The position numbers and the translations under genes are program-made. 64,000 nt of DNA from Saccopteryx bilineata (taxonomy: Eukaryota; Chordata; Mammalia; Chiroptera; Emballonuridae): NCBI RefSeq assembly GCF_036850765.1, contig NC_089490.1, positions 277,712,482 through 277,776,481 of the forward strand, read 5' to 3'. Every line of letters begins with the position of its first letter. Within the stretch, counting starts at the first letter, position 1. The notes beneath the pieces are model-generated. The model did no database searches and was not told the DNA's origin. It saw only the letters and a program-made list of their open reading frames with translations. Below, piece after piece: positions 3,900-54,713 of the stretch.

Positions 3900-4532
3900 C
3901 ATGCTAAGGCCAGATGCTGCCTATTTGAGAGATTTTAGAAAAATATCTTATGCATTTTTGCAATAAAGTTCAGACTTTCTCAGTCAATGGTAATGTGATA
4001 ACACTGATCTAGGATTTGAAAAACCTTAATAATGATGGAACTAAAAATGCCATCTTAATAAATATTTTTGTCTGCAGGCAATAAGAGTTGATATAGAGGT
4101 AGGACACATTGATTCCAGAAGTGAGAGAAAGAGAAAAGTGGATGTTAATTCTCCTTCCACAGTGGCAAGTTTCATTTACATCACACTTTATAAATAATCA
4201 CCTTCAGCATTTTAACAGATTGTTGTAATTTATTGTGAATTTTTAAAATGTGACCTTGTATATAGATAATCAGTACCAACTGTCTGATTTGTAATTGCTT
4301 AATAATTAGGGGATAAATTATATTAAACTCTGTTTTAAACATACTAATTTATTTTTGAAGTAGGTATATTTCTATTTGTTTTAGAAATGATGACAATTTC
4401 ATGATAAACAAGCTGGCAAGGCAGACTACATTTGCATCATGCAATTATCTCCTGGGAAGCTAAACAAAAACACATTTTTTTTCCTCCAAGTTGTACGATC
4501 ATATCTTTATTCTAAAGAAATTTCCAGAAGGC
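3900..4532. other. unannotated AT-rich DNA
   Basis: I see no gene or clear repeat here. It separates the HAL1-like element from the next SINE. Confidence 0.5.
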
Positions 4533-7680: not shown

Positions 7681-8608
7681 CAGTCATGTGCAACATACAA
7701 CATTTCAGTCAATGGACCACATATGATGATGGCCCCATAAATCTATAATAGAGCTAAAAATTCCAGTCACCTAGTGACATGCATCATTAAAAGAGAGAAA
7801 TATTCCTGGTGCTTGATCGGTTTACAAGTAAATCTATGATAAAAAACAAACAAACAAACAAAGAAGCAAGCAAACCACCATGGTCATATTTCTTAGTGAT
7901 GCCTCCTTAGGAAGAGCCTAGGCAGGTCCTTCAGGAGGTATTGCAGAAGAAGACGTTGTTATCATAGAAGATGACAGCTCCCATGCATGTTATTGCCCTT
8001 GAAAAGTGTCCAGAGGGACATGAGGTGGAGGTGGAAACGGCGACATTGGTGATCCTGACCTTATGGAGGGCTAGGCTAATGTGTATGTTTGTGTCTTAGA
8101 AAATATTTTTGTACAGCTATAAGATGATGTGTTTGTGTTTTAAACTAAGTGTTATTAAAGAGTCAAAAAGTTATAAATTTTTAAGCTTATAAAGTAAAAG
8201 AGCTATTGTAAAATATATTGAGGTTAACTTATTATTGAAGAAAAAATAATTTTCATAAATGCAGTGCAGTCTAAGAATACAGTGTTTATAAAGTGGTGTA
8301 CAGTAGTGTCCTAGGCCCTCACTCACCACTCACTCGCTCACTCACCCACCCACAACTTCCAATCCCACAAGTTGCATTCATGGCAAAGGTATTATATGGG
8401 CACACCACTTTTAAAATCTTTTATACTGTATTTTTACTGTAGACTTCTATACTTAGCTAGGTTTAAGTACACAAGTACCATTGTGTTACAACTGCCTTAC
8501 AGCCAGGAGTGTGGAAGTCCCAGGTTTGATTCCCAATCAGGGCACACAGGAGAAGTGACCATCTGCTTCTCCATTCCTTCCCCTCCCCCTTCTCTCTGTC
8601 TCTCTCTG

Positions 8609-8646
<38 letters not shown>

Positions 8647-9087
8647 CCTCCCCATCCTGCAGCATAGTTCAAATGGTGGAGCAAGTTGGCCCTGGGCACT
8701 GAGTATGGCTCCATGGCCTTGCTTCAGGCACTAAAATAGCTTGGTTGCTGAGCAACAGAGCAGCAGCCCCAGATGGGCAGAGCATCACCCAGTTGGGGGC
8801 TTGCTAAGTGTATCCTGGTCAGGGTACATGCAGGACTCTGTCTCTCTGACTCCCCACCTCTCACTTAATTTAAAAAACAAAACAAACTGCCTTACAGTAT
8901 TCAGTAAATAACATGCTGTACAGGTTAGTAGCCTTGGAGAAGTAGGCTACACCATATAGCCTAGGTATGTAGTAGGTTATATCATCTGGGTTTAAGCAAC
9001 TACATTCTATGATGTTTGCATAATGGCAAAATCACCTAATGATGCATTTCTCAGAACATATGCCCATTATTAAGCTATGCATGACTG
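7681..9087 (+). mobile_element. mariner/Tc-type DNA transposon relic, split by a SINE
   Basis: The termini are inverted: CAGTCATGTGCAACATACAA at the left and ...GCTATGCATGACTG at the right. The left end is preceded by TA, and the right flank reads TG, probably a decayed TA duplication. Inside are blocks that I remember from a non-autonomous mammalian Tc/mariner-class element, such as 'gcaggtccttcaggaggtat' and 'gctaatgtgtatgtttgtgtc', as well as 'caccactcactcgctcactc'. I do not assign a subfamily. A type B SINE at 8503-8884 interrupts it. There is no intact transposase frame. Confidence 0.78.
8503..8884 (+). mobile_element. tRNA-derived SINE, type B, 5'-truncated
   Basis: It starts inside the tRNA-like head (CCAGGAGTGTGGAAGTCCC, then the B-box-like GGTTTGATTCC) and continues with 'gggcacacaggagaagtgacc', a (TCTC) pyrimidine tract and 'gggcagagcatc', ending in an A-rich tail. 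It is flanked by the perfect 13-bp duplication AACTGCCTTACAG at 8490-8502 and 8885-8897. It lies inside the mariner-like element and is therefore younger. Confidence 0.92.
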
Positions 9088-10061: not shown

Positions 10062-10295
10062 GCACTCCTTGTTTTAGTGTTCTATTGCATTCTATGATGT
10101 TGCCATAAACACAGAGGCTCAAAGCAATACCCCCTTATTGCCTCACAGGGCTCACGGGTCAGTAGTCCAGCTGGAGTCTCTGTTTAGGATCCCACCAGCC
10201 TAAGTCAAGGTGTCACTGGAATTGAAATCTATTTGAGGCTCAGGATCTTCTTCCAAACTCACTAGTTGTGGCAAAATTCAGTTCCATGTGATTTT
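10062..10295 (-). mobile_element. MaLR-like LTR remnant, minus strand (part 1)
   Basis: This is the reverse orientation of an MLT1-like LTR: 'ttctattgcattc..', 'cctcacagggctcacgggtc', 'aatctatttgaggctcaggatc', 'caaaattcagttcc'. It is split from part 2 (10707 on) by the young SINE. A 63-bp piece of it (10100-10162) reappears perfectly at 10911-10973. Confidence 0.6.
10100..10162 (+). repeat. 63-bp direct repeat, copy 1 (source copy)
   Basis: The segment from TTGCCATAAACACAG to CTCACGGGTCAG is identical over 63 bp to 10911-10973. Here it sits in its expected LTR context, so this is probably the template. Confidence 0.95.
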
Positions 10296-10706
10296 ATTTT
10301 ATTTTTTTATTATTTTTTTTTTCCCATTTTTCTGAAGCTGGAAACAGGGAGAGACAGTCAGACAGACTCCCGCATGCGCCCGACCGGGATCCACCCGGCA
10401 CGCCCACCAGGGGCGACGCTCTGCCCACCAGGGGGCGATGCTCTGCCCATCCTGGGCATCGCCATGTTGCGACCAGAGCCACTCTAGCGCCTGGGGCAGA
10501 GGCCACAGAGCCATCCCCAGCGCCCGGGCCATCTTTGCTCCAATGGAGCCTTGGCTGCGGGAGGGGACGAGAGAGACAGAGAGGAAAGCGCGGCGGAGGG
10601 GTGGAGAAGCAAATGGGCGCTTCTCCTGTGTGCCCTGGCTGGGAATCGAACCTGGGTCCTCCGCACGCTAGGCCGACGCTCTACCGCTGAGCCAACCGGC
10701 CAGGGC
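10296..10706 (-). mobile_element. young tRNA-derived SINE, type B, full length
   Basis: Minus-strand SINE. Its head at the right end is intact on the reverse strand: GCCCTGGCCGGTTGGCTCAG, then GGTTCGATTCC as B box. It has many unmutated CpGs, a long T-run at its left end (complement of the A-tail), and a perfect 17-bp target duplication CAGTTCCATGTGATTTT at 10279-10295 and 10707-10723. The body carries a tandem 21/22-bp duplication (10402-10422 and 10423-10444). These features make it one of the youngest insertions in the window. Confidence 0.96.
10402..10444 (-). repeat. internal 21/22-bp tandem duplication in SINE
   Basis: Two near-identical units, GCCCACCAGGGGCGACGCTCT and GCCCACCAGGGGGCGATGCTCT, lie head to tail. 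The type B SINE at 33230 has only one such unit, so the duplication marks a subfamily or a copy-specific slip. Confidence 0.85.
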
Positions 10707-10900
10707 CAGTTCCATGTGATTTTAGGACTGAGACCTTCTGCTCCTAGAGGCTGTCCACCCACCCCAGCCATGGGGCACTTTCCAAAACAGGGAAGTGTGC
10801 TTCTTTAAGGTCAACAGCACAGCTTCTGCTGCTGCATGGAGTACCATTTCGGAGTTCACACTGTTAGGTCAAATACATCTCAAAGTCTCTCCTTCTGAAC
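10707..10900 (-). mobile_element. MaLR-like LTR remnant, minus strand (part 2)
   Basis: Continues the LTR of part 1 after the SINE: 'aggactgagaccttctgctcc', 'tagaggctgtccaccc', 'gccatggggcactttcc', 'caacagcacagcttctgctg'. It is a diverged relic. Confidence 0.5.
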
Positions 10901-11165
10901 TACCGTATTTTTGCCATAAACACAGAGGCTCAAAGCAATACCCCCTTATTGCCTCACAGGGCTCACGGGTCAGCCCTGTGACACACCTGACCATAAGACA
11001 CACCTAAGATTTTAAGGAGGAAAATAAGTAAAAATATTCTGAACCGAATGCTGTGTTAAAATAATTAATAAATTACTGTATTTTTCACTCTATAAGATGC
11101 ACGGGCATTTTCCCCTCCACTTTTGGGGTGAAAAAAGTATGTCTTATGGAGCGAAAAATATGGTA
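10901..11165. mobile_element. short inverted-repeat (MITE-like) DNA element
   Basis: The ends are complementary: TACCGTATTTTT at 10901 and AAAAATATGGTA ending at 11165, which can be read as CCGTATTTTT termini flanked by TA. The interior has further mirror segments such as 'ctataagatgcac' and 'gtatgtcttatggag', so the right arm can fold into a hairpin. There is no coding capacity. The left arm is interrupted by a 63-bp stretch copied from 10100-10162. I recall similar CCATAAGACGCACC-type elements in mammals but cannot name this one. Confidence 0.72.
10911..10973 (+). repeat. 63-bp direct repeat, copy 2, inside the MITE-like element
   Basis: Perfect 63-bp copy of 10100-10162. The left junction (TTTTTGCCATAA) and right junction (GTCAGCCCTGTG) fall within the left arm of the short inverted-repeat element. 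No target duplication frames it, so it looks like a templated repair insert rather than a transposition. Confidence 0.95.
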
Positions 11166-33229: not shown

Positions 33230-33591
33230 CGGTAGAGCATTGGCCTGGCGTGCAGGAGACTCAGGTTCGATTCCCAGCCAGGGCACACAGAAGAGGCGCC
33301 CATCTGCTTCTCCACCCCTCCCCCTCTCCTTCCTCTCTGTCTTTCTCTTCCCCTCCTGCAGCCGAGGCTCCATTGGAGCAAAGATGGCCTGGGCGCTGAG
33401 GATGGCTCTATGGCCTCTGCCTCAGGCGCTAGAATGGCTCTGGATGCAACAGAGTGATGCCCCAGAGGGGCAGAGCATCGCCCCCTGGTGGACATGCCGG
33501 GTGGATCCTGGTTGGGCGCATGCGGGATTCTGTCTGACTGCCTCCCCGTTTCCAGCTTCGGAAAAATGACCAAAAAAAAAAAAAAAAAAAA
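33230..33591 (+). mobile_element. tRNA-derived SINE, type B, 5'-truncated
   Basis: It starts within the head (CGGTAGAGCATTGGCCTGGC) with a good B box GGTTCGATTCC, then 'gggcacacagaagaggcgcc', 'gcctctgcctcaggcgc' and a final A-run of about 20. The perfect 14-bp duplication AAGAGTCTGTGTCC lies at 33216-33229 and 33592-33605. Many CpGs are kept, so it is young. The 181- and 122-codon frames here are SINE-derived. Confidence 0.94.
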
Positions 33592-33605
33592 AAGAGTCTG
33601 TGTCC

Positions 33606-41095: not shown

Positions 41096-41098
41096 TTA
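41096..41098 (+). repeat. TTA target-site duplication, left
   Basis: TTA immediately precedes the left CACTGGGGAA terminus and matches TTA immediately after the right terminus at 43414-43416. Confidence 0.7.
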
Positions 41099-41123
41099 CA
41101 CTGGGGAATAATTTTTTTTTTAT
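41099..41123 (+). repeat. left terminal inverted repeat
   Basis: CACTGGGGAA followed by T-rich sequence. It pairs with the right terminus at 43389-43413. Such ends are normally the binding and cleavage sites of the cognate transposase. Confidence 0.75.
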
Positions 41124-41424
41124 TTTCTGTTGCATGAGGTTTTAGAACTTTTTCTATATATTTCAGCATCACCGATTCCAAATCTGAAATATGTTTTTTA
41201 ATACATGCTCTAGTTTTTATGCAATTTTGATTTCTTTTTGTTACAGTTAATGGCATGCATTGGTGTTTAAATTGGAGTTAAAGGGCCAGAACTCTTGGAT
41301 TAAACATAACCACAAGGCAATTAATGTTTTATAAACATCATTTTTACATAATTGTAGTTGTTTTTAAATGTAAAAAATTAATATCTGATAAAAACACACT
41401 CTTATTTTGTTTTAAGATTGAATC

Positions 41425-43062
41425 ATGGCTTCTTTGAGTAGGCATAAATGTAAGAATAGTCAGTCCTGGCACCTTCTATTATACATGTGGCTGTTACACA
41501 CTTCAACGTCAAAAGCACAATATTTCATCATTGGTGACACGTGCATATATTGCCTATTTTCAAGTACCCCTTGGCAATCAAGACAAGAATTGGGCTTTTC
41601 ATATTGTGTGTCATAATTGTTAGAAAATGCTTTGTGACTGGACAAAAGGAAAATGCAATGGAATGCCTTTTGGTATTCCCATGGTTTGCCGTGAACCTAA
41701 GGACCAGAGCAGTGACTGTTATTTCTGTTTGATCCATACAAAGGGCATCGGCAAGAAAAAAACAGCATATGATTGCATAACCTAATATTCCTTCAGCAAT
41801 GTGACCTATCCCACACTCTGAGAAACTCCCGGTTCCAGTTTTCAATGGTTTTACTTCTTCTAAGGACGAAAAGAGTGAACATGGTGATCAAGTGTATTTT
41901 GATAAGATGCATGAGGAAACGGTTGTAGAATCTAAAGGGTCTTCTTCTGATGCCAAGCAGTCATTAACCCCTCAGCAGTTTAGCCAACCCAAATTGAATA
42001 AATTAGTAAGAGATTTGGGCCTATCAAAGAAAGCAGCTGAGTTATTAGCCTATAGGCTTCAAGAAAAGAATGTACTTCACCAGTCAGCTAAAGTATCCCA
42101 TTTCAGGAAGTGTGAACAAATTTTTGTGGGCTTTTCTTCTGAAGAAAAACATTTTGTTTACTGTCATGGTATTAGTAGTCTTCTCAGCCAGCTAGGTATT
42201 ACCACTTACAGTCCAACAGAATGGGGGCTATTTCTTGACAGCTCTAAACGGAGTCTGAATTGTGTTCTACACAACGGTAATGTTTATGCAGTGGTTCCAA
42301 TAGGTTATTCAACTCATCTGCAAGATTATAATGACATAAAAATTGTCCTTGACTTTCTGAAGTATGAAGAGCATAACTGGATCATTTGTGTGGATCTTAA
42401 AATGGTAAGTTTCCTGCTAGGACAACAGAGAGGTTTCATGAAGTATCCTTGCTTTCTGTGTTTGTGGGACAGCCGAGTTCGGGAGAAATGCTGGAGACAG
42501 AAGGAGTAGCCGAAACGTGAAGCTCTGGATGCAAAATATTGTGAATGAACCTGTAGTTAATCGAGACAGGATCATTATTCCCCCACTTCACATCAAATTT
42601 GGCTTAATGAAGCAGTTTGTTCAGGCTTTGAATGGAGAAAGTGAATGTATTCAACATATTATTTCTGCTTTCCCTGCCTTGTCTTTCAAGAAGATAAAAG
42701 CAGGTGTATTTGATGGACTTCAAATTCTAACCCTCATACGTGACGAAAAATTTGCCAGGAAGATGAATAAGGAAGAGAAAGCAGCATGGCAGTCGTCTGT
42801 GGCAATTACAAAGAATTTCCTTGGCAACAAAAAAGCAGAAAACTATGAACTTCTGGTTCAAAGGATGCTGTTGGCTTTCTGTGACATTGGATGTAACATG
42901 AGCATTAAGATTCACTTCCTGAACAGTCACCTTGATAAGTTCCCCAAAAATCTTGGAGCTGTTAGTGATGAGCAGACTACTGCTGGAGCATCAAACGAGA
43001 TTGTCCTCAACAAGTACACAAACGCAAGAGCTAGCTACAAATGCAAATTTTTGCCTGAATAG
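41425..43062 (+). pseudogene. broken transposase-like gene of an invertebrate-type repeat family
   Basis: Remnants in order: KCKNS (41425 frame); a Cys/His-rich N-terminal part with TCGCYTLQRQ, HIVCHNC, MPFGIPMVCREPKD and DCYFCL (41474-41755); PHSEKLPVPVFNGF (about 41810); then the longest open part, 205 codons (41892-42509), with LVRDLGLSKKAAELLA, LFLDSSKRSL (D at 42237), IICVDLKM (D at 42393), and CFLCLWDSR (CxxC); then 42529-42975 with IPPLHIKFGLMKQFV, ITKNFLGNK and HFLNSHLDKFP; then DYCWSIKRDCPQ and a YKCKFLPE end. The two Asp motifs plus CxxC would suit an RNase H-type DDE/D transposase (inference); a third acidic motif is not visible. I remember this motif order from uncharacterised multicopy proteins of arthropods and cnidarians. 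Lesions: frameshift near 41470, TAG 41621, A7 shift at 41756, TAA 41778, TGA 41802, TAG 42507, shift near 42525, a deletion/shift near 42975, and a 4-bp duplication near 43032. It has no introns. Confidence 0.78.
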
Positions 43063-43388
43063 AATTTAAATAAGTTTTGCACAAATTTTATGATTAAAAT
43101 AAGTGTTTTAATATGTTCTATTTCAAAATTGTAGAAAAATTCTGATGCAATCATATCTTTTAGTGTATTAGTGTATTTACTGCATTATATAAATTATTAT
43201 ATTTTCACAAAGACGATGCCCAAGAAGACATTCTACTTCATTATGTTAAACTAAATGTTGAAAATTTTACAATAAGATGAAAACCTAAAATCTTGAATTG
43301 CAAAAAAACTGCAGCTTACAGAGAAAAACGAATGTTAGATTTGAGATCAGCACACTCGAATTAGGTAAGAACAAGTGTTTTTGTAGAT

Positions 43389-43413
43389 GAAACAAAAATT
43401 TTGTTCCCCAGTG
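43389..43413 (-). repeat. right terminal inverted repeat
   Basis: Ends ...TTTTGTTCCCCAGTG, the reverse complement of the left terminus, with 10 terminal bases identical. It is followed by TTA at 43414-43416. Confidence 0.75.
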
Positions 43414-43416
43414 TTA
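43414..43416 (+). repeat. TTA target-site duplication, right
   Basis: Matches TTA at 41096-41098 on the other side of the element. Confidence 0.7.
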
Positions 43417-45400: not shown

Positions 45401-47141
45401 ACTTTTACATTTCCCCTATTAACTTCTTTTTTTCAATTATAGTTTACATTCATTATTTTGAATCAGTCCCCTGTTAACTTTAAGTCACATTTGCTTTATT
45501 CTTTCTGCATGATTGTGTGTATTATATATATTATATATAACATACATACACACATTGTCATTTTTTAAATCATTTCAGAAAACTTTGCAGAAATTATACT
45601 CCTAACTCCTCCTTATCTTACTTAATAGTTTTCTTAAAAGAACAAGAATATTCTGTATAGCTACATTACAGGCATCAAAATCAGTAAGTCAATATTAATA
45701 TATTTCAACTATTTTATCTACAGACCTTAAAATTTTGCCAGCTGTCGCCCTGGCTGGTTGGCTCAGTGGTAGAGTGTCGACCCAATGCATGGATGTCCTG
45801 GGTTTGATTCCCAACTAGGGCACACAGAAGAAGCACCCATCTGCTTCTCTACCCTTCCCCCTCTCCTTTCTCTCTATCTCTTTCTTTTCCTCCTGCAGCC
45901 AAGGCTCCACTGGAGCAAAGTTGGCCCAGGTGCTAAGGATGGCTCCATGGCTTCCACCTTAGGTGCTAGAATGGAATGGCACAGATGGGCAGAGCATCGC
46001 CTCCTGGTGGGCTTGCCAGGTGGATCCTGGTTGGGTGCACATGAGAGTCTGCCTCTCTGTGTCCCTGCTTCTCACTTTAGGAAAAAAAAAATTGCCAGCT
46101 GTCCCAATAGTATCCTTTACAGCACAAACATTCTTTTTCTGATCCAAGATGTAATTTAGATCCAGTGTTTTATTTGGTTGTTCTATTTTTTTGTCTTTTA
46201 TGACAAAATAGGTCTTCCTTCTTTTTATGCCTTTCATGACTTGGTGGTTTTTGAAAAGTAGAAGCAAGTGTTTTGTAGAATGCTCCTCAGTTTGGGTTTG
46301 TGCGATGGCTCCTCATGGTGAAATTGGTCATAATTTTGGCTGGAATATTAGAAATCTTACTGTTTCTTTCTCAGTACATCAAATCAGGATTCCTATACTA
46401 ATTCTCTGTCCCATTACCAGTGAAGGGACGTTCAAGGAAGTGGTTATGGTGAGATTGATGAGATTTTTTCACTATCAAGTCATAGATTTTCCTCATAATT
46501 AATAAGTATTTTATAGGTAAATACTTTGAGAATATATAAATATCTTGACATCATCAAACTCTCACCCATACATTTTAGCATTCCAATTGGCATTTTACAG
46601 TAAGGGAGAGCAGTCCCTTCTGCTTCAGTTGTTTATTCATCCATTTATTTGTGCTATAATATATTCATGGATTCTTAGTTTATTCAATGTGTTATAAGCT
46701 TATACCATCATTATTTATTTTGACAATCAAATTGTCTCAGATGTCTTCAGTGAACCACCTTCAAGCTGGCTCCTTCCTCCTTTTGACATGCCCTCATCAT
46801 TCTGTGAATATTTCCTTAATTTCTGGGACAACAAAATCTTCCAGGCTTAATTGGAACTCTCATTACCTAGACCCTAGAATCAGCTACTTCTATAAGAAAC
46901 CTTGGTTTATTTAAGTGAGAATAAATTTTAGAAAGCTACTATTGTGTGTTCAGTGCTGGTTTCTAGACTTTAAACCACGGGATCTAGGAGATGAGGAAAG
47001 CAATGAATATGTGTGCATACACACATACCTACACATTCTACTTCTAAGCACACACAATCTGCCATATAATATACTAAGAGGATCACAATGAGCACAATAT
47101 GTACCAATGTTCATATCTATTGAAAGGTTTATATTTTTTAT
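45401..47141 (-). mobile_element. ancient L1 3' region, minus strand, split by SINE
   Basis: T-rich text with several blocks known from old L1 3' ends: 'ttaaaattttgccagctgt' / 'cccaatagtatcctttacagc', 'ttttggctggaatattagaaatc', 'aataagtattttataggtaaatactttgag', 'catcaaactctcacccatac', 'ttttgacatgccctcatcattc' and 'tctgggacaacaaaatcttccaggc'. It is interrupted by the SINE at 45747-46091. The young L1 begins right after its end. Strand and limits are inferred from the T-rich composition. Confidence 0.6.
45747..46091 (+). mobile_element. tRNA-derived SINE, type B, full length
   Basis: The head is GCCCTGGCTGGTTGGCTCAG with B-box-like GGTTTGATTCC, followed by 'gggcacacagaagaagcacc', 'gggcagagcatcgcctcctgg' and an A-tail. 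The 12-bp duplication TTGCCAGCTGTC lies at 45735-45746 and 46092-46103. It is inserted in the old L1 3' region. The 124-codon frame over it is SINE-derived. Confidence 0.93.
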
Positions 47142-47154: not shown

Positions 47155-49572
47155 GGATGACATCAGAGTAATGGCGGGGTAGGAAGCGATATCGATAAAT
47201 CTCCCCCAAAACTCAACAAGATCTTCAACCAGAAACAGAAAAATCTATACTTGGAGCTTCCAGATGCTTCGCAATACACCCAAAGGTATGATTGAGTGAA
47301 AAATTGGCTAAATATATAACCAAACCCCGAAGGAAATAGGGAGCAAGAAATGCTCCGCCTTCCTCACTAACCTAAACAGGGCGGCTTTCTCTGGTAACTG
47401 TGAATATAGAAACTGAGGCGGGCAAAGGGGGTGAATAGATCCAGGCTGCTGCGGCACAAACGGCCGAACCAGGCTGTGGCATGGAGATCAAAGCCGAGGA
47501 AAATCTGATCCTGTGGCAACCCGGGCAATACAAGCTAACAGTTGCGCCAAACCCAAACAAAGAAACACAAGCGGAGCGGCCATTTTACCCGGTCTCCTGG
47601 TCGGTGCGCAGTTAGTGGGCGAGAATTTCTTCCTAGGCCCCGAGAGTGGGTGCCCGTGTTGCCCCACGGAGAGGCAGGGACAGAGGCCTTTCTGTGGGCC
47701 GAGGGCAGAGTCTCTGGGCAGCCCCAGCGCCCTGGGAAAGCCACACATGGGAGGGAGTGAGAACTAATTCCAACGGTGGAGATTTTCCGTGCTGGAGGGT
47801 ATTTCACTCAGAGGGAAACGTGGCCGGCCTCATATCCTGGTTTGCGCGCGCAGATAAGGAGTGAGCAATTCCTCCGAGTGCCTCGGCAGTGCGCGCCCGT
47901 GTTATCGCACAGAGGGGCAGAGTCAGGGGCCTTTGTGTGGGCCAAAGCGGAATCTCGAGCCGCCCCAGCGCCTTGCAAAAGCCGCGCACGGGGACGGAGC
48001 GAGACTCAATTCCAACGCTACAACTTTTCCCTGCGGTTGGGGGTTTCACTCAGAGCGTGAGACTGCTGGCCGGATATCCTGGTCGCAGACAGTGAGTGAG
48101 AGTTTCCTCCAAGCGCCCCGGAAGTGGGCGCCCGCTTGTGTTACCGGACAGAGTGGCAGAGCCAGAGGTCTTTGAGTGGGCGGAAAGCCCGCCTGATTAT
48201 GCTAGCAGCTCTGACTGACTGAGCCTTACCCAGAGCCCTGTGCTGAGTGGAAATAGAGTGGGGAGTTGCCAGCTCTTTGAGCCTCTTACTATCCAGGCAG
48301 AGGCAGCAGCAACCCCATAGCTGGATTATCAGGCTACTAATTGAGGAAGGAAAGACTAGGAGAAAGGCTCCAGGAACACGGACACTCTCACTGTCGGAGC
48401 CTATAAATGCTAATGAGCTTTGACTCCAACGAGACTAAAGCACAATACATGACATTGCCATAGAGACTTATCAACTGCAAACCTCTACCTGAGCGTGCCA
48501 AAGGGGCAGAACCCGGGGTACAGAGTCACTGACCAGGAAGAGGGAGAGAAAAGAAAAAGCAAGAAGATAACCTCTCAAAATCAAGAATAATCTGCAGACT
48601 TTATAACCTATCCCATTTTATTATATTTGTTCGTTTGTTTCTCTTATCTTCATTCTTGATACTTTTTTTTCCTCCTCCAATTTGGCCGATTAACTCTCTA
48701 CCGGTCTTACTCTCTCCTCTCCTTGAACTACACTACCCATAAGTGTTACATCTCCCATTATCTTTTCGCTTCTCTTCCTTTCTCTCTATGAGGGTTGCAC
48801 TCCAAAACCCTTAACTCTCTCTCTCTCTCTCTCCTTTCTTTTTTCTTCTTTTAGTGGTTCCCTCTTTTTTTCTCTCTCTTTCTTTTCTCCCTCTATATTA
48901 GTTTCTTCCTTTCTCCTTTACATCTCCTCTCATTCAAACCTCAATAACAAACAAATTATCTTATCTGGGACTCAAACCTATGTTTGTGGCATTTTGGGGG
49001 GTTTTTACTTCACCTTTTTAACTCACTAGCAGTGCTCCCATCCCTGGCTCTCCATATTATCTAGTTCTTGTTCCACTAAATACAATAGTAATTTTTTAAT
49101 TTGTCCCCCCATTTTTCCGTTTTCCTCTTATTCCTCTCATCATAACTCTTAGACAACCAACACCTAAAAGCAAATCATTTTATTCTTGACCCAAATTTTT
49201 TCCTTATTTGCTTTTTCTGGGTCCATACGCTCTTTTTTTTCTTTTTCCTTTTTTAATTTCCTTTTTTTTTTCTTTTTTTGCCCCTTTATTACTTTTCCCC
49301 AATTCAGGCCCTCCATCACAGGCATTGTTTGTTATAATTCACAGTCCACCACAAGATTTTCTCAAGAAAGAGGGGAGAGGAGAGGATAGGAAAAAAGGAG
49401 GGGGGGGAATAATATCCTTTTTTTTTAATTTTTATTTTATTTTATTTTTCTTTATTTCATTATTAATTTTTTTTTAAAAAAACAACTCTTTTCGATTTTT
49501 AATTTTTTTTATTTTTTTAACTTTTTATTCTTTATTAAATCTCATTAATACTATCAACAAAACCACCCTCAG
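47155..49572 (+). promoter_or_regulatory. L1 5' UTR / internal promoter
   Basis: The first 30 bp hold a CRE-like TGACATCA (47158-47165) and ATGGCGG (47171-47177), similar to the YY1 site that sets the start point in other L1s. The region 47350-48190 is CpG-rich and includes tandem monomers. 48600-49560 is strongly C/T- then T-rich with long poly-pyrimidine runs. Small frames in the GC-rich part (60-104 codons, several overlapping on both strands) are incidental. Confidence 0.85.
47596..48190 (+). repeat. tandem promoter monomers in the L1 5' UTR
   Basis: Three diverged units start at CCTGGT: 47596-47835 (240 bp), 47836-48077 (242 bp) and a partial 48078-48190. Shared landmarks are 'gcccgtgtt', 'cagaggcctttgtgtggg', 'gccccagcgcc', 'aattccaacg' and 'tttcactcagag'. 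This resembles the monomeric promoter layout of rodent L1s. Confidence 0.85.
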
Positions 49573-50567
49573 ATGCCATTAAGGAAGAGAAAATCGAATA
49601 TCATGGATACAAAAGAAAGAGAGGTAACACAGCTAGATGAGGAAAAATCTATGGAGAAAAAATTTAATATATTGGAAACCTTGGAGCTAAATGACAGAGA
49701 ATTCAAGATAGAAATCCTAAAAATCCTCCGAGATATACAAGAAAACACAGAAAGGCAATTTAGGGAGCTCAGAAAACAACTCAATGAACACAAAGAATAT
49801 ATGTCCAAAGAAATTGAAACTATAAAAACAAATCAAACAGAGATGAAAAAATTAATTCACGAGCTGAAAAATGAAGTAACAAGCTTAGCTAATAGAACAG
49901 GTCAGATAGAAAGTAGGATTAGTGAAATACAAGACAAGCAACTTGAGGCACAACAGAGGAAGAAGAAAGAGACTCAAAAATTAAAAAAAATGAGATAGCC
50001 CTACAAGAATTATCTGACTCCATCAAAAAGAATAACGTAAGAATAATAGGTATATCAGAGGGAGAAGAGAGAGAAAATGGAATGGAGAACATACTCAAAC
50101 AAATAATAGATGAGAACTTCCCAAGCCTGTGGAAAGAACTAAAGCCTCAAATTCAAGAAGCAAACAGAACACCGAGTTTTCTTAACCCCAACAAACCTAC
50201 TCCAAGGCATATCATAATGAAATTGACACAAACCAACAGCAAAGAAGAAATTCTCAAGGCAGCCAGGGAAAAGAAGAAAACAACATATAAAGGAAGGCCC
50301 ATTAGATTATCATCAGATTTCTCAGCAGAAACTCTACAAGCTAGAAGAGAGTGGACCCCAATATTTAAAGTCCTGAAAGAGAGGAACTTTCAGCCATGAA
50401 TACTATACCCATCAAAGCTATCCTTCAAATATGAAGGAGAAATAAAAACATTCACAGATACAGAAAAGATGAGGGAATTTATGATCAGAAAACCCCCACT
50501 CCAGGAATTACTAAAGGGGGTTCTCCAATCAGATACAAAGAACAAAAAAAAACAGAGCCACAAGTAA
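49573..50567 (+). pseudogene. L1 ORF1: L1 ORF1 (RNA-binding chaperone), two lesions
   Basis: Starts ATGCCATTAAGG at 49573. Residues 1-140 form a Lys/Glu-rich coiled coil (heptad-like 'LRKQLNEHKEY', 'LKNEVTSLANR'). The frame shifts by one base in an A8 run at 49983-49990, then continues through NEIALQEL, VRIIGISEGEE (RRM part) and the C-terminal domain with LSSDFSAETLQARREW (about 50310-50355). A TGA at 50397 replaces an expected Arg codon (probably CGA to TGA), after which the frame stays open through LSFKYEGEIKTF and REFMIRKPPLQELL to TAA at 50565. ORF1p trimers coat L1 RNA and are needed for retrotransposition. Full length would be about 331 residues, close to the mammalian norm. Confidence 0.93.
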
Positions 50568-50893
50568 AAGCTCCAAGAAGAACACAATAAAACCAAATTT
50601 AAACTGTGACAACAACAAAAAGAAAGAGGGGGAGAAGATGGAGATTAACAGTAGCAAAGGACGATGGAGTGCAAAAGTACTCACAAAATAGTTTGCTACA
50701 ATGAACAGGGTAGGGACCCTTTCCATTACTCAAAGGTAACCACCATTGAAAAAACCACCACAGAAGCACATGAGATAAAAAAGATAGCAACAGAGGAAAG
50801 ATGTATGGAATACAACCAAACAAAAACAAAAGATAGAAAAATGAAAGAGAAGGATCAAACAAGACACAAAACTAACAGAAAGCAAGATATAAA

Positions 50894-53800
50894 ATGGCAA
50901 TAGGGAACTCACAAGTATCAATAATTACACTAAATGTAAACGGATTAAACTCACCAATAAAAAGGCACAGAGTAGCAGAATGGATTAAAAAAGAAAATCC
51001 AACTGTATGCTGCCTATAGGAAACTCATCTAAGTAACAAGGATAAAAACAAATTCAAAGTGAAAGGCTGGAAAACAATACTCCAAGCAAATAACATCCAA
51101 AAAAAAGCAGGTGTAGCAATACTCATATCGGATAATGCTGACTACAAGACAGGAAAAGTACTCAGAGACAAAAATGGCCATTTCATAATGGCTAAGGGGA
51201 CACTGAATCAAGAAGACATAACAATTCTTAATATATATGCACCAAACCAAGGAGCACCAAAATATATAAGTCAGCTACTTATCGATCTTAAAACAAAAAC
51301 TGACAAAAATACAATCATACTTGGAGACCTCAATACACCGCTGACGGCTCTAGATTGGTCATCCAAACAGAGAATCAACAAAGACATAGTGGCCTTAAAC
51401 AAAACACTAGAGCACCTGGATATGATAGACATCTACAGGACATTTCATCCCAAAGTGACTGAGTATACATTTTTCTCCAGTGTACATGGATCATTCTCAA
51501 GAATTGACCATATGTTGGGCCACAAAACAACATCAGCAAATTCAGAAAAATTGAAGTAGTGCCAAGCATATTTTCTGATCATAAAGCCTTGAAACTAGAA
51601 TTCAACTGCAAAAAAGAGGAAAAAAATCCCACAAAAATGTGGAAACTAAACAACATACTTTTAAAAAATGAATGGGTCAAAGAAGAAATAAGTGCAGAGA
51701 TCAAAAGATATATACAGACTAATGAAAATGACAATACGACATATCAGAATCTATGGGATGCAGCAAAAGCAGTATTAAGAGGAAAGTTCATATCACTTCA
51801 GGCCTATATGAACAAACAAGAGAGAGCCGAAGTAAACCACTTAACTTCACACCTTAAGGAACTAGAAAAAGAAGAACAAAGACAACCCAAAACCAGCCGA
51901 AGAAAGGAGATAATAAAAATCAGAGCAGAAATAAATGAATTAGAGAACAGAAAAAGTATAGAAAAAATTAATAGAACAAGGAGCTGGTTCTTTGAAAAGA
52001 TCAACAAAATTGACAAACCCTTGGCAAGACTTACCAAGGAAAAAAGAGAAAGAACTCATATAAACAAAATTTAAAATGAAAGAGGAGAAATCACCACGGA
52101 CACCGTAGATATACAAAGAATTATTGTAGAATACTATGAAAAACTTTATGCCACTAAATTCAACAACCTAGAAGAAATGGATAAATTCCTAGAAAAATAC
52201 AAACTTCCTAGACTGAGTCAAGAAGAAGCAGAAAGCCTAAACAGACCTATCAGTAGAGAAGAAATAGAAAAAACCATTAAAAACCTCCCCAAAAATAAAA
52301 GTCCAGGCCCTGACGGCTATACCAGCGAATTTTATCAAACATTCAAAGAACACTTGGTTCCTATTCTACTCAAAGTCTTCCAAAAAATTGAAGAAGAAGC
52401 AATACTTCCAAACACATTTTATGAGGTCAACATAACCCTCATACCAAAACCAGGCAAGGATGGCACAAAAAAAGAAAACTACAGACCAATATCTCTAATG
52501 AATACAGATGCTAAAATACTAAACAAAATACTAGCAAATCGAATACAACAACATATTAAAAAAAATACATCATGATCAAGTGGGATTCATCCCAGAATCT
52601 CAAGGATGGTTCAACATACGTAAAACGGTTAATGTAATACACCATATCAACAAAACAAAGAACAAAAACCACATATCTTATCAATAGACGCGGAAAAGGC
52701 TTTCGATAAAATACAACACAATTTTATGTTTAAGACTCTCAACAAAATGGGTATAGAAGGAAAATATCTCAACATGATAAAGGCCATATATGATAAACCA
52801 TCAGCTAACATCATATTAAATGGCACTAAACTGAAGGCTTTCCCCCTTAAATCAGGAACAAGACAGGGTTGTCCACTCTCTCCACTCTTATTTAATGTGG
52901 TACTAGAGGGTCTAGCCAGAGCAATCAGACAAGACAAAGAAATAAAAGGCATCCATATCGGAAAAGAAGAAGTAAAGGTATCACTTTTTGCAGATGATAT
53001 GATCCTATACATCGAAAACCCCAAAGAATCCACAAAAAGACTACTAGAAACAATAAGCCAATACAGTAAGGTCGCAGGATACAAAACATACAGAAGTCAA
53101 TAGCCTTTCTATATGCCAACAATGAAACAACTGAGAACGAACTCAAAAGAATAATCCCCTTCACGATTGCAACAAAAAAAATAAAATACTTAGGAATAAA
53201 CATAACAAAGAATGTAAAGGACTTATATAATGAAAACTATAAACCATTGTTAAGGGAAATCGAAAAAGATATAATGAGATGGAAGAATATACCTTGTTCT
53301 TGGCTAGGAAGAATAAATATAATCAAGATGGCTATATTACCCAAAGCAATATACAAATTTAATGCAATTCCCATCAAACTTCCAATGACATTTTTTAAAG
53401 AAATAGAGCAAAAAATCATCAGATTTATATGGAACTATAAAAAACCCCGAATAGCCAAAGCAATCCTAAAGAAAAAGAATGAAGCTGGGGGCATAACAAT
53501 ACTTGACTTCAAACTCTATTATAGGGCCACGACAATCAAAACAGCATGGTATTGGCAGAAAAATAGACACTCAGACCAATGGAACAGAATAGAAAGTCCA
53601 GAAATAAAACCACATATATATAGTCAAATAATTTTTGATAAAGGGGCCAACAACACACAATGGAGAAAAGAAAGCCTCTTCAATAAATGGTGCTGGGAAA
53701 ACTGGAAAGCCACATGCAAAAGAATGAAACTGGACTACAGTCTCTCCCCCTGTACAAAAATTAACTCAAAATGGATCAAAGATCTAAACATAAGACCTGA

Positions 53801-54713
53801 AACAATTAAGTACATAGAAGAAGACATAGGTACTAAAATCATGGACCTGGGTTTTAAAGAGCATTTTATGAATTTGACTCCAATGGCAAGAGAAGTGAAG
53901 GCAAAAATTAATGAATGGGACTACATTAGACTAAGAAGTTTTTGCTCAGCAAGAGAAACTGATAACAAAATAAACAGAAAGCCAACTAAATGGGAAATGA
54001 TATTTTCAAACAACAGCTCAGATAAGGGCCTAATATCCAAAATATACAAAGAACTCATAAAACTCAACAACAAACAAACAAACAATCCAATAAAAAAATG
54101 GGAAGAGGATATGAATAGACACTTCTCCCAGGAAGAAATACAAATGGCCAACAGATATATGAAAAGATGCTCATCTTCTTTAGCTATTAGAGAAATGCAA
54201 ATCAAAACGGCAATGAGATACCACCTCACACCTGTTCGATTACCTGTTATTAGCAAGTCAGGTAATAGCAAATGTTGGAGAGGCTGTGGAGAAAAAGGAA
54301 CCCTCATACACTGTTGGTGGGAATGTAAAGTAGTACAACCATTATGGAAGAAAGTATGGTGGTTCCTCAAAAAACTGAAAATAGAACTACCTTATGACCC
54401 AGCAATCCCTCTACTGGGTATTTATCCCAAAAACTCAGAAACATTGATACGTAAAGACACATGCAGCCCCATGTTTATTGCAGCATTGTTCACAGTGGCC
54501 AGGACATGGAAACAACCAAAAAGCCCATCAATAGATGACTGGATAAAGAAGATGTGGCACATATACACTATGGAATACTACTCAGCCATAAGAAATGATG
54601 ACATCGGAACATTTACAGCAAAATGGTGGGATCTTGATAACATGATACGAAGCGAAATAAGTAAATCAGAAAAAAACAGGAACTGTATTATTCCATACAT
54701 AGGTGGGACATAA
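50894..54713 (+). pseudogene. L1 ORF2: L1 ORF2 (endonuclease and reverse transcriptase), several lesions
   Basis: Starts ATGGCAATAGGG at 50894. The apurinic-type endonuclease domain has LNVNGLN, then CCL-stop-ETH, where a TAG (51017) replaces Gln right before the catalytic Glu; it continues with [15 protein letters not shown] and FSDH. The reverse transcriptase has [51 protein letters not shown] and FADD (52987-52998). The C-terminal Cys motif [18 protein letters not shown] (from 54273) is present. Lesions: TAG 51017, frameshift about 51525-51540, TAA 52072, frameshift about 52562 (A7), compensating shift about 52676, shift about 53088; the last 488 codons (53247-54713) are open. About 1273 codons if read through, as in human L1. 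The protein performs target-primed reverse transcription. Confidence 0.95.

Follow-up and report, generated by a model that had tools for sequence, protein, structure and literature searches.

The window analyzed here, a 64-kb stretch of the genome of the bat Saccopteryx bilineata, lies on contig C1 of a 2.61-Gb assembly. Between positions 41099 and 43413 it contains a 2,315-bp copy of a DNA transposon, bounded by inverted ends, flanked by a three-base target-site duplication, and carrying the remnant of a single transposase gene. The features of this copy are listed below by window position; P0001 is a protein of S. leptura.

41096–41098, unstranded: TTA, the 5′ target-site duplication, with A just before it (41095); the pattern recurs in other copies
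41099–43413, + strand: Chapaev3-type DNA transposon copy, internally deleted and dead (ends, flanks, and genomic copies compared)
41099–41108, + strand: 5′ terminal inverted repeat CACTGGGGAA, a perfect 10-bp pair with the 3′ end
41425–43062, + strand: intronless remnant of the transposase gene, interrupted by frame changes and by four in-frame stops (tblastn of P0001 for all but the 3′ limit)
42237–42239, + strand: codon of the presumed first catalytic Asp, in LFLDSSKR (P0001 alignment; conserved in relatives)
42393–42395, + strand: codon of the presumed second catalytic Asp, in CVDLK (P0001 alignment; conserved in relatives)
42450–42461, + strand: C(2)C motif, CFLC (P0001 alignment; motif count in relatives)
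42586–42591, + strand: LH motif, in PPLHIK (P0001 alignment; motif count in relatives)
42913–42930, + strand: H(4)H motif, HFLNSH (P0001 alignment; motif count in relatives)
42970–42978, + strand: junction of a 76-bp deletion, after SDEQ (alignment of copies and P0001)
43404–43413, − strand: 3′ terminal inverted repeat, reading TTCCCCAGTG on the + strand, in a perfect 10-bp pair
43414–43416, unstranded: TTA, the 3′ target-site duplication, with T just after it (43417); the pattern recurs in other copies

An earlier interpretation of this DNA from its letters alone (hereafter the sequence-only reading) had placed inverted ends at 41099 and 43413 with TTA on both sides, and the sequence bears this out. 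When the 700 bp on each side of the coding remnant were shuffled by dinucleotides, 0 of 3,000 shuffles produced a 10-bp inverted pair that both began with CAC and had matching 3-bp flanks; with any 10-bp inverted pair allowed, 114 of 3,000 did so. Elsewhere in the 64-kb window, no further transposon copy or end fragment stood out (best E 0.010). Across the genome, two DNA searches located long matches at 44 or more places, counting the window, and L058, discussed below, is a 45th copy; these searches scored the best 40 of 3,499 and the best 40 of 3,317 first-look candidates, and the copy numbers are therefore lower bounds. The other long copies are 88–92% identical to the window element and, as the proposed bounds would predict, many share its ends and have TAA or TTA flanks. 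Both ends are recognizable in 30 of 39 fetched copies (the other nine were left out), and in 14 of these 30 the two 3-bp flanks are the same, each time TAA or TTA (TWA), with A before in 13 and T after in 12. Taken together, the 30 two-ended copies have a preceding A in 25 cases and a following T in 20. Four copies were fetched later; three have both ends, two of these with matching TWA flanks.

The gene remnant aligns with P0001 in five tblastn pieces (41425–41460, 41462–41761, 41742–42533, 42529–42975, and 42972–43028) that lie in three frames, are 81–95% identical, and include four in-frame stops. The claim of one intronless gene remnant holds, as no intron is needed across approximately 41425–43062, yet the remnant has frame changes, stops, and a deletion; likewise, the quoted cysteine and aspartate motifs are all present, distributed over more than one reading frame. 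Among the best 120 relatives listed, 116 contain C(2)C, LH, and H(4)H in this order. Of a putative DDE catalytic triad, two aspartates and an acidic [DE]EQGER motif are conserved in relatives, with more than one glutamate a candidate for the third residue; one such candidate is deleted from the window copy. The predicted fold of a related transposase has RAG1 and Transib as its best matches. A Pfam profile search of the window protein and its relatives returned no match above cut-off, to any transposase family or otherwise, and the N-terminus gave a weak hint of zf-AD in 9 of 24 members (best E 0.0029). Sequence searches of the PDB found nothing convincing, one being without a match up to E 1 and another returning one match at E 0.49, and a viral structure library contained no match at E ≤0.001.

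These features argue for membership in a described group. According to PMC4079192, Chapaev3 elements have CAC/GTG ends and a TWA duplication that always lies between A and T, and their transposases, approximately 556–570 residues long and mostly encoded in a single exon, contain C(2)C, LH, and H(4)H motifs; one example is 2,289 bp long and encodes 556 residues. The window element is flanked by TTA on both sides, between A and T, and the flanks of all 14 matching-flank copies are TWA, although the outer A and T are not universal among decayed copies. The ends of the window element and of its copies read 5′-CAC and GTG-3′, and the three motifs are present in the window. The combination of A-TWA-T, ends, size, and motifs points to Chapaev3 and not to Harbinger. 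The supposition in the sequence-only reading that no named family fits finds no support, as the ends, the TWA duplication, a length of 2.3 kb, a protein of about 560 residues, and the motifs are those published for Chapaev3. Its suggestion of a CACTA/EnSpm-like (CMC) element stands for the CMC superfamily, within which the Chapaev branch replaces the CACTA/EnSpm branch, and nothing found in the analysis supports its alternative of PIF/Harbinger, drawn from the TTA target. That the element is a cut-and-paste DNA transposon coding for a transposase is supported by its copies, its ends, and the fold of its relative.

Relatives of the transposase are numerous. The read-through protein query returned 1,253 relatives at E ≤0.001 among 6,021 candidates, and a query with the metagenome protein P0026 returned 2,274 among 2,626; in each search the best 120 were listed. 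Most relatives listed are metagenome proteins without host assignment, and one match is labeled as a bacterial metagenome-assembled genome. The invertebrate hosts among the matches listed are a stick insect, beetles, moths, a psyllid, a sea louse, a horseshoe crab, a tunicate, and a glass sponge, and the vertebrate hosts are S. leptura, a frog, and a worm lizard; no mammal other than S. leptura is named among the matches listed in both searches. No relative was confirmed in the bacterial/archaeal and viral contig collections that were scanned. The earlier idea that uncharacterized invertebrate proteins are transposases related to this element gains support from these searches and from the fold match. 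A 34-protein tree groups the window copy with that of S. leptura (support 100/97); this pair is joined by P0026 (100/99) and then by P0056 and the stick insect (100/99), while the frog and worm lizard relatives lie far from the bat pair. P0001 shares 87% identity with P0026 over 307 residues and 73% with the protein of the stick insect over 410. Because the bat proteins are nested beside a stick insect protein, the best reading of the sequences is that the family entered the bat lineage by horizontal transfer from outside mammals, most likely as the sequence-only reading had proposed; the donor would probably have been an invertebrate.

The copies of S. bilineata suggest how the family fared after its arrival. 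Mean pairwise Kimura two-parameter distance among 40 copies is 0.092, and a tree of 44 copies is star-like, with a median tip of 0.044 and 3 of 41 inner branches starred (bootstrap unsettled). A star of such tips suggests a single old burst, and mammalian substitution rates of 2.2–2.7 × 10⁻⁹ per site per year would place it roughly 16–21 million years ago. All 40 of the 44 copies that were compared with P0002 contain one or more frame changes and two or more stops each, some of the stops falling where the alignment continues out of frame. The window copy is dead: its private changes fall on 26 of 210 variable, 13 of 106 intermediate, and 19 of 157 invariant columns (p 0.997), and this equality across column classes indicates neutral decay, as expected of a dead copy. 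Five copies contain long inserts, of which four match the short interspersed elements (SINEs) of the window and one the 3′ end of the window L1. In L042 and L045, SINEs occupy the same element site (approximately positions 1809–1823); they are 81% identical to each other, and the insertions therefore look independent.

A deletion of 76 bp is shared at the same junction by 40 of 44 copies, the window included, with L041, L043, L044, and L055 retaining the 76 bp. It removes a conserved G-E-R stretch, including one candidate for the third catalytic acid, and puts the C-terminus out of frame. The first DNA query carried the deletion, and the copy list may therefore be biased; a second query, which did not span it, added three deleted copies and one undeleted copy. 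As the deletion is common to most copies and costs them part of the catalytic region, the deleted copies were probably mobilized in trans by the enzyme of full-length ones.

We conclude with considerable confidence that the window element, now dead, belongs to a cut-and-paste family of the Chapaev3 type (CMC superfamily) that most likely entered the bat lineage horizontally, spread in one burst, and probably moved for the most part in trans; the analysis confirms a transposon with clear bounds, of a known group, in a host new to that group. Other identities have been weighed. A separate, unnamed CMC-like or RAG1/Transib-like superfamily could share the TWA duplication and the motifs with Chapaev3 by chance: no Pfam model scored above cut-off, no paper turned up in a literature text search for six motif strings, and the comparison with named Chapaev3 proteins is one of published descriptions. 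We consider this improbable, as every testable Chapaev3 mark is present, including the unusual A-TWA-T rule and the size, and as Transib has 5-bp target-site duplications, whereas the matching flanks here are 3-bp TWA. A PIF/Harbinger or CACTA/EnSpm element, as in the sequence-only reading, deserves the least credence of all. TWA 3-bp duplications do occur in PIF/Harbinger, and 3-bp duplications and CACT ends occur in CACTA, but no Pfam transposase family appeared above cut-off—Pfam may not cover every CACTA transposase—and the fold list is headed by RAG1, with Transib also at the top. PIF/Harbinger elements encode a Harbinger-type transposase and a second, Myb-like protein, and one gene remnant is seen here. 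Moreover, PMC4079192 lists this very set of motifs, C(2)C, LH, and H(4)H, for Chapaev. On the Pfam, fold, motif, and 3-bp duplication evidence, PIF/Harbinger, CACTA, and Transib were set aside. As for origin, the range of named relatives, from a glass sponge to a frog and a reptile, could be accommodated by vertical inheritance in mammals with loss in most lineages and no transfer. This is very improbable given that the bat pair is nested in a clade with the stick insect at 73% protein identity, that the frog and worm lizard relatives are distant in the tree, that the copies form a star of modest depth, and that the matches listed name no other mammal.

Several observations nevertheless weigh against a horizontally acquired, trans-mobilized Chapaev3 family, in whole or in part. 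Membership rests on published marks, with the Repbase Chapaev3 sequences compared by description only, and C(2)C, LH, and H(4)H also occur in RAG1. Of the 30 two-ended copies, 16 lack matching flanks. P0026, the nearest relative outside bats, is a metagenome protein without host assignment, as are most others, and other mammalian hosts may sit outside the best 120 of 1,253 and the best 120 of 2,274 relatives. Lastly, the best copy tree needs four changes of deletion state and its starred branches force at least three, contrary to a simple single origin; the AU test does not reject grouping the deleted copies in a single clade (p-AU 0.276, bootstrap unsettled), and recurrent deletion or exchange between copies may have contributed.

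A mechanism consistent with the preferred Chapaev3 reading can be proposed. The full-length element would encode a single-exon transposase of approximately 565 residues, with a DDE nuclease core predicted to resemble those of RAG1 and Transib and an N-terminus that is rich in cysteine and may form a zinc finger. This enzyme would bind the CACTGGGGAA ends, excise the element, and join it into A-TWA-T sites, duplicating TWA. Following horizontal entry into the bat lineage, probably from an invertebrate, one burst of copies would have occurred roughly 16–21 million years ago, with the 76-bp-deleted copies carried along by enzyme from full-length ones.

The sister copy L058 raises a further possibility.

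C4:45175600–45185500 (positions 4190–179), − strand: L058, a Chapaev3 copy adjoining a partial DLGAP5 duplicate, upstream of it on the same strand

P0001, annotated as "uncharacterized protein isoform X4," is DLGAP5 from residue 564 onward, and this part matches the DLGAP5 of S. bilineata (P0121) at 98 of 103 residues. The S. bilineata gene lies at C4:44.98–45.02 Mb, and approximately 146 kb away, at C4:45167570–45176029, is a partial inverted duplicate of its 3′ exons (87–91% protein identity). L058 aligns with residues 1–564 of P0001 ungapped and with 551 of 564 identical (97.7%), and DLGAP5-like exons come next; this shared exon order suggests that the S. leptura fusion gene lies at the same locus. 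L058 retains the 76 bp and, with extra sequence in its 5′ part, spans 3,104 bp; its ends have no matching 3-bp flanks. Its frame is unbroken by any frame change and has one stop, at codon 105, which P0001 does not share. At its end, a base that is C in 43 of 44 other copies and T in the remaining one is G, creating a GT splice donor, and the exon borders after this donor look canonical. DLGAP5 exons are absent from the 64-kb window and from within approximately 9.5–10 kb of three C4 transposon copies.

Measured against the site majority, L058 carries 27 changes that are non-synonymous, 18 that are synonymous, and 1 that creates a stop, compared with 2,174, 760, and 196 for 44 other copies pooled (Fisher p 0.025, stops counted as non-synonymous). 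Its ratio of non-synonymous to synonymous changes is 1.5, the lowest among the others being 1.86; its 18 synonymous changes (mean 17 in others) suggest a similar age, and its 27 non-synonymous changes are about half the mean of 49. Changes in invariant columns number 4 of 142 in P0001 and 19 of 157 in the window copy (p 0.004). It is possible, if rather doubtful, that an L058-type transposase was recruited, acquiring its splice donor by one base change, and that the DLGAP5 fusion has been kept by selection, at least in S. leptura. The stop at codon 105 in S. bilineata speaks against recruitment, as do the modest p of 0.025, the choice of L058 on the grounds that its S. leptura relative was annotated as a gene, and the distribution of P0001's own changes, which avoid conserved columns to no significant degree (13 of 197 variable versus 4 of 142 invariant columns, p 0.14).

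Other repeats in the window include a decayed L1 at 49549–54713, with pieces of open reading frame 1 (Transposase_22) and open reading frame 2 (endonuclease, RVT_1), and SINE copies at 8516–8886, 10297–10727, 33231–33598, and 45729–46091. This SINE, presumably of the bat VES type, is the one found inside four other transposon copies. Two identical 63-bp stretches, 811 bp apart, occupy 10100–10162 and 10911–10973.

These findings add a bat lineage to the mammals that harbor Chapaev3. PMC4079192, from 2014, reports horizontal transfer into vertebrates and names one mammalian host, a tenrec; later reports may exist. In literature searches, none of the titles and abstract openings listed reports this family in bats, and a paper on DNA transposon transfer into bats might list it. 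The family represents one more probable horizontal transfer into bats, and through it many animal proteins that had no name are connected with transposases whose predicted fold resembles those of RAG1 and Transib. Its copies with a shared catalytic-region deletion offer a natural case of probable trans-mobilization, and L058 is a testable candidate for a transposase–host gene fusion.

The family can be compared with known systems. RAG1, Transib, and ProtoRAG show 9–15% sequence identity in the fold alignments; the bat element differs from Transib in its 3-bp TWA duplication (5 bp in Transib) and contains no RAG2-like gene. The transposons shared by invertebrates and bats in PMC4298943 are alike in horizontal transfer and differ in kind, being hAT (Buster1, Buster2), piggyBac (Kenshin), and CACTA (Spongebob); Spongebob has a 2-bp duplication and, according to that study, was not found in bats. 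The closest counterparts, compared by their descriptions in PMC4079192, are the Chapaev3 elements Merrow, Garfield, and Conan, which share the CAC/GTG ends, the A-TWA-T site, a length of approximately 2.3 kb, a protein of approximately 556–570 residues, the three motifs, and a gene of mostly one exon; the bat family differs from them in its host, sac-winged bats, and in the 76-bp deletion found in most of its copies.
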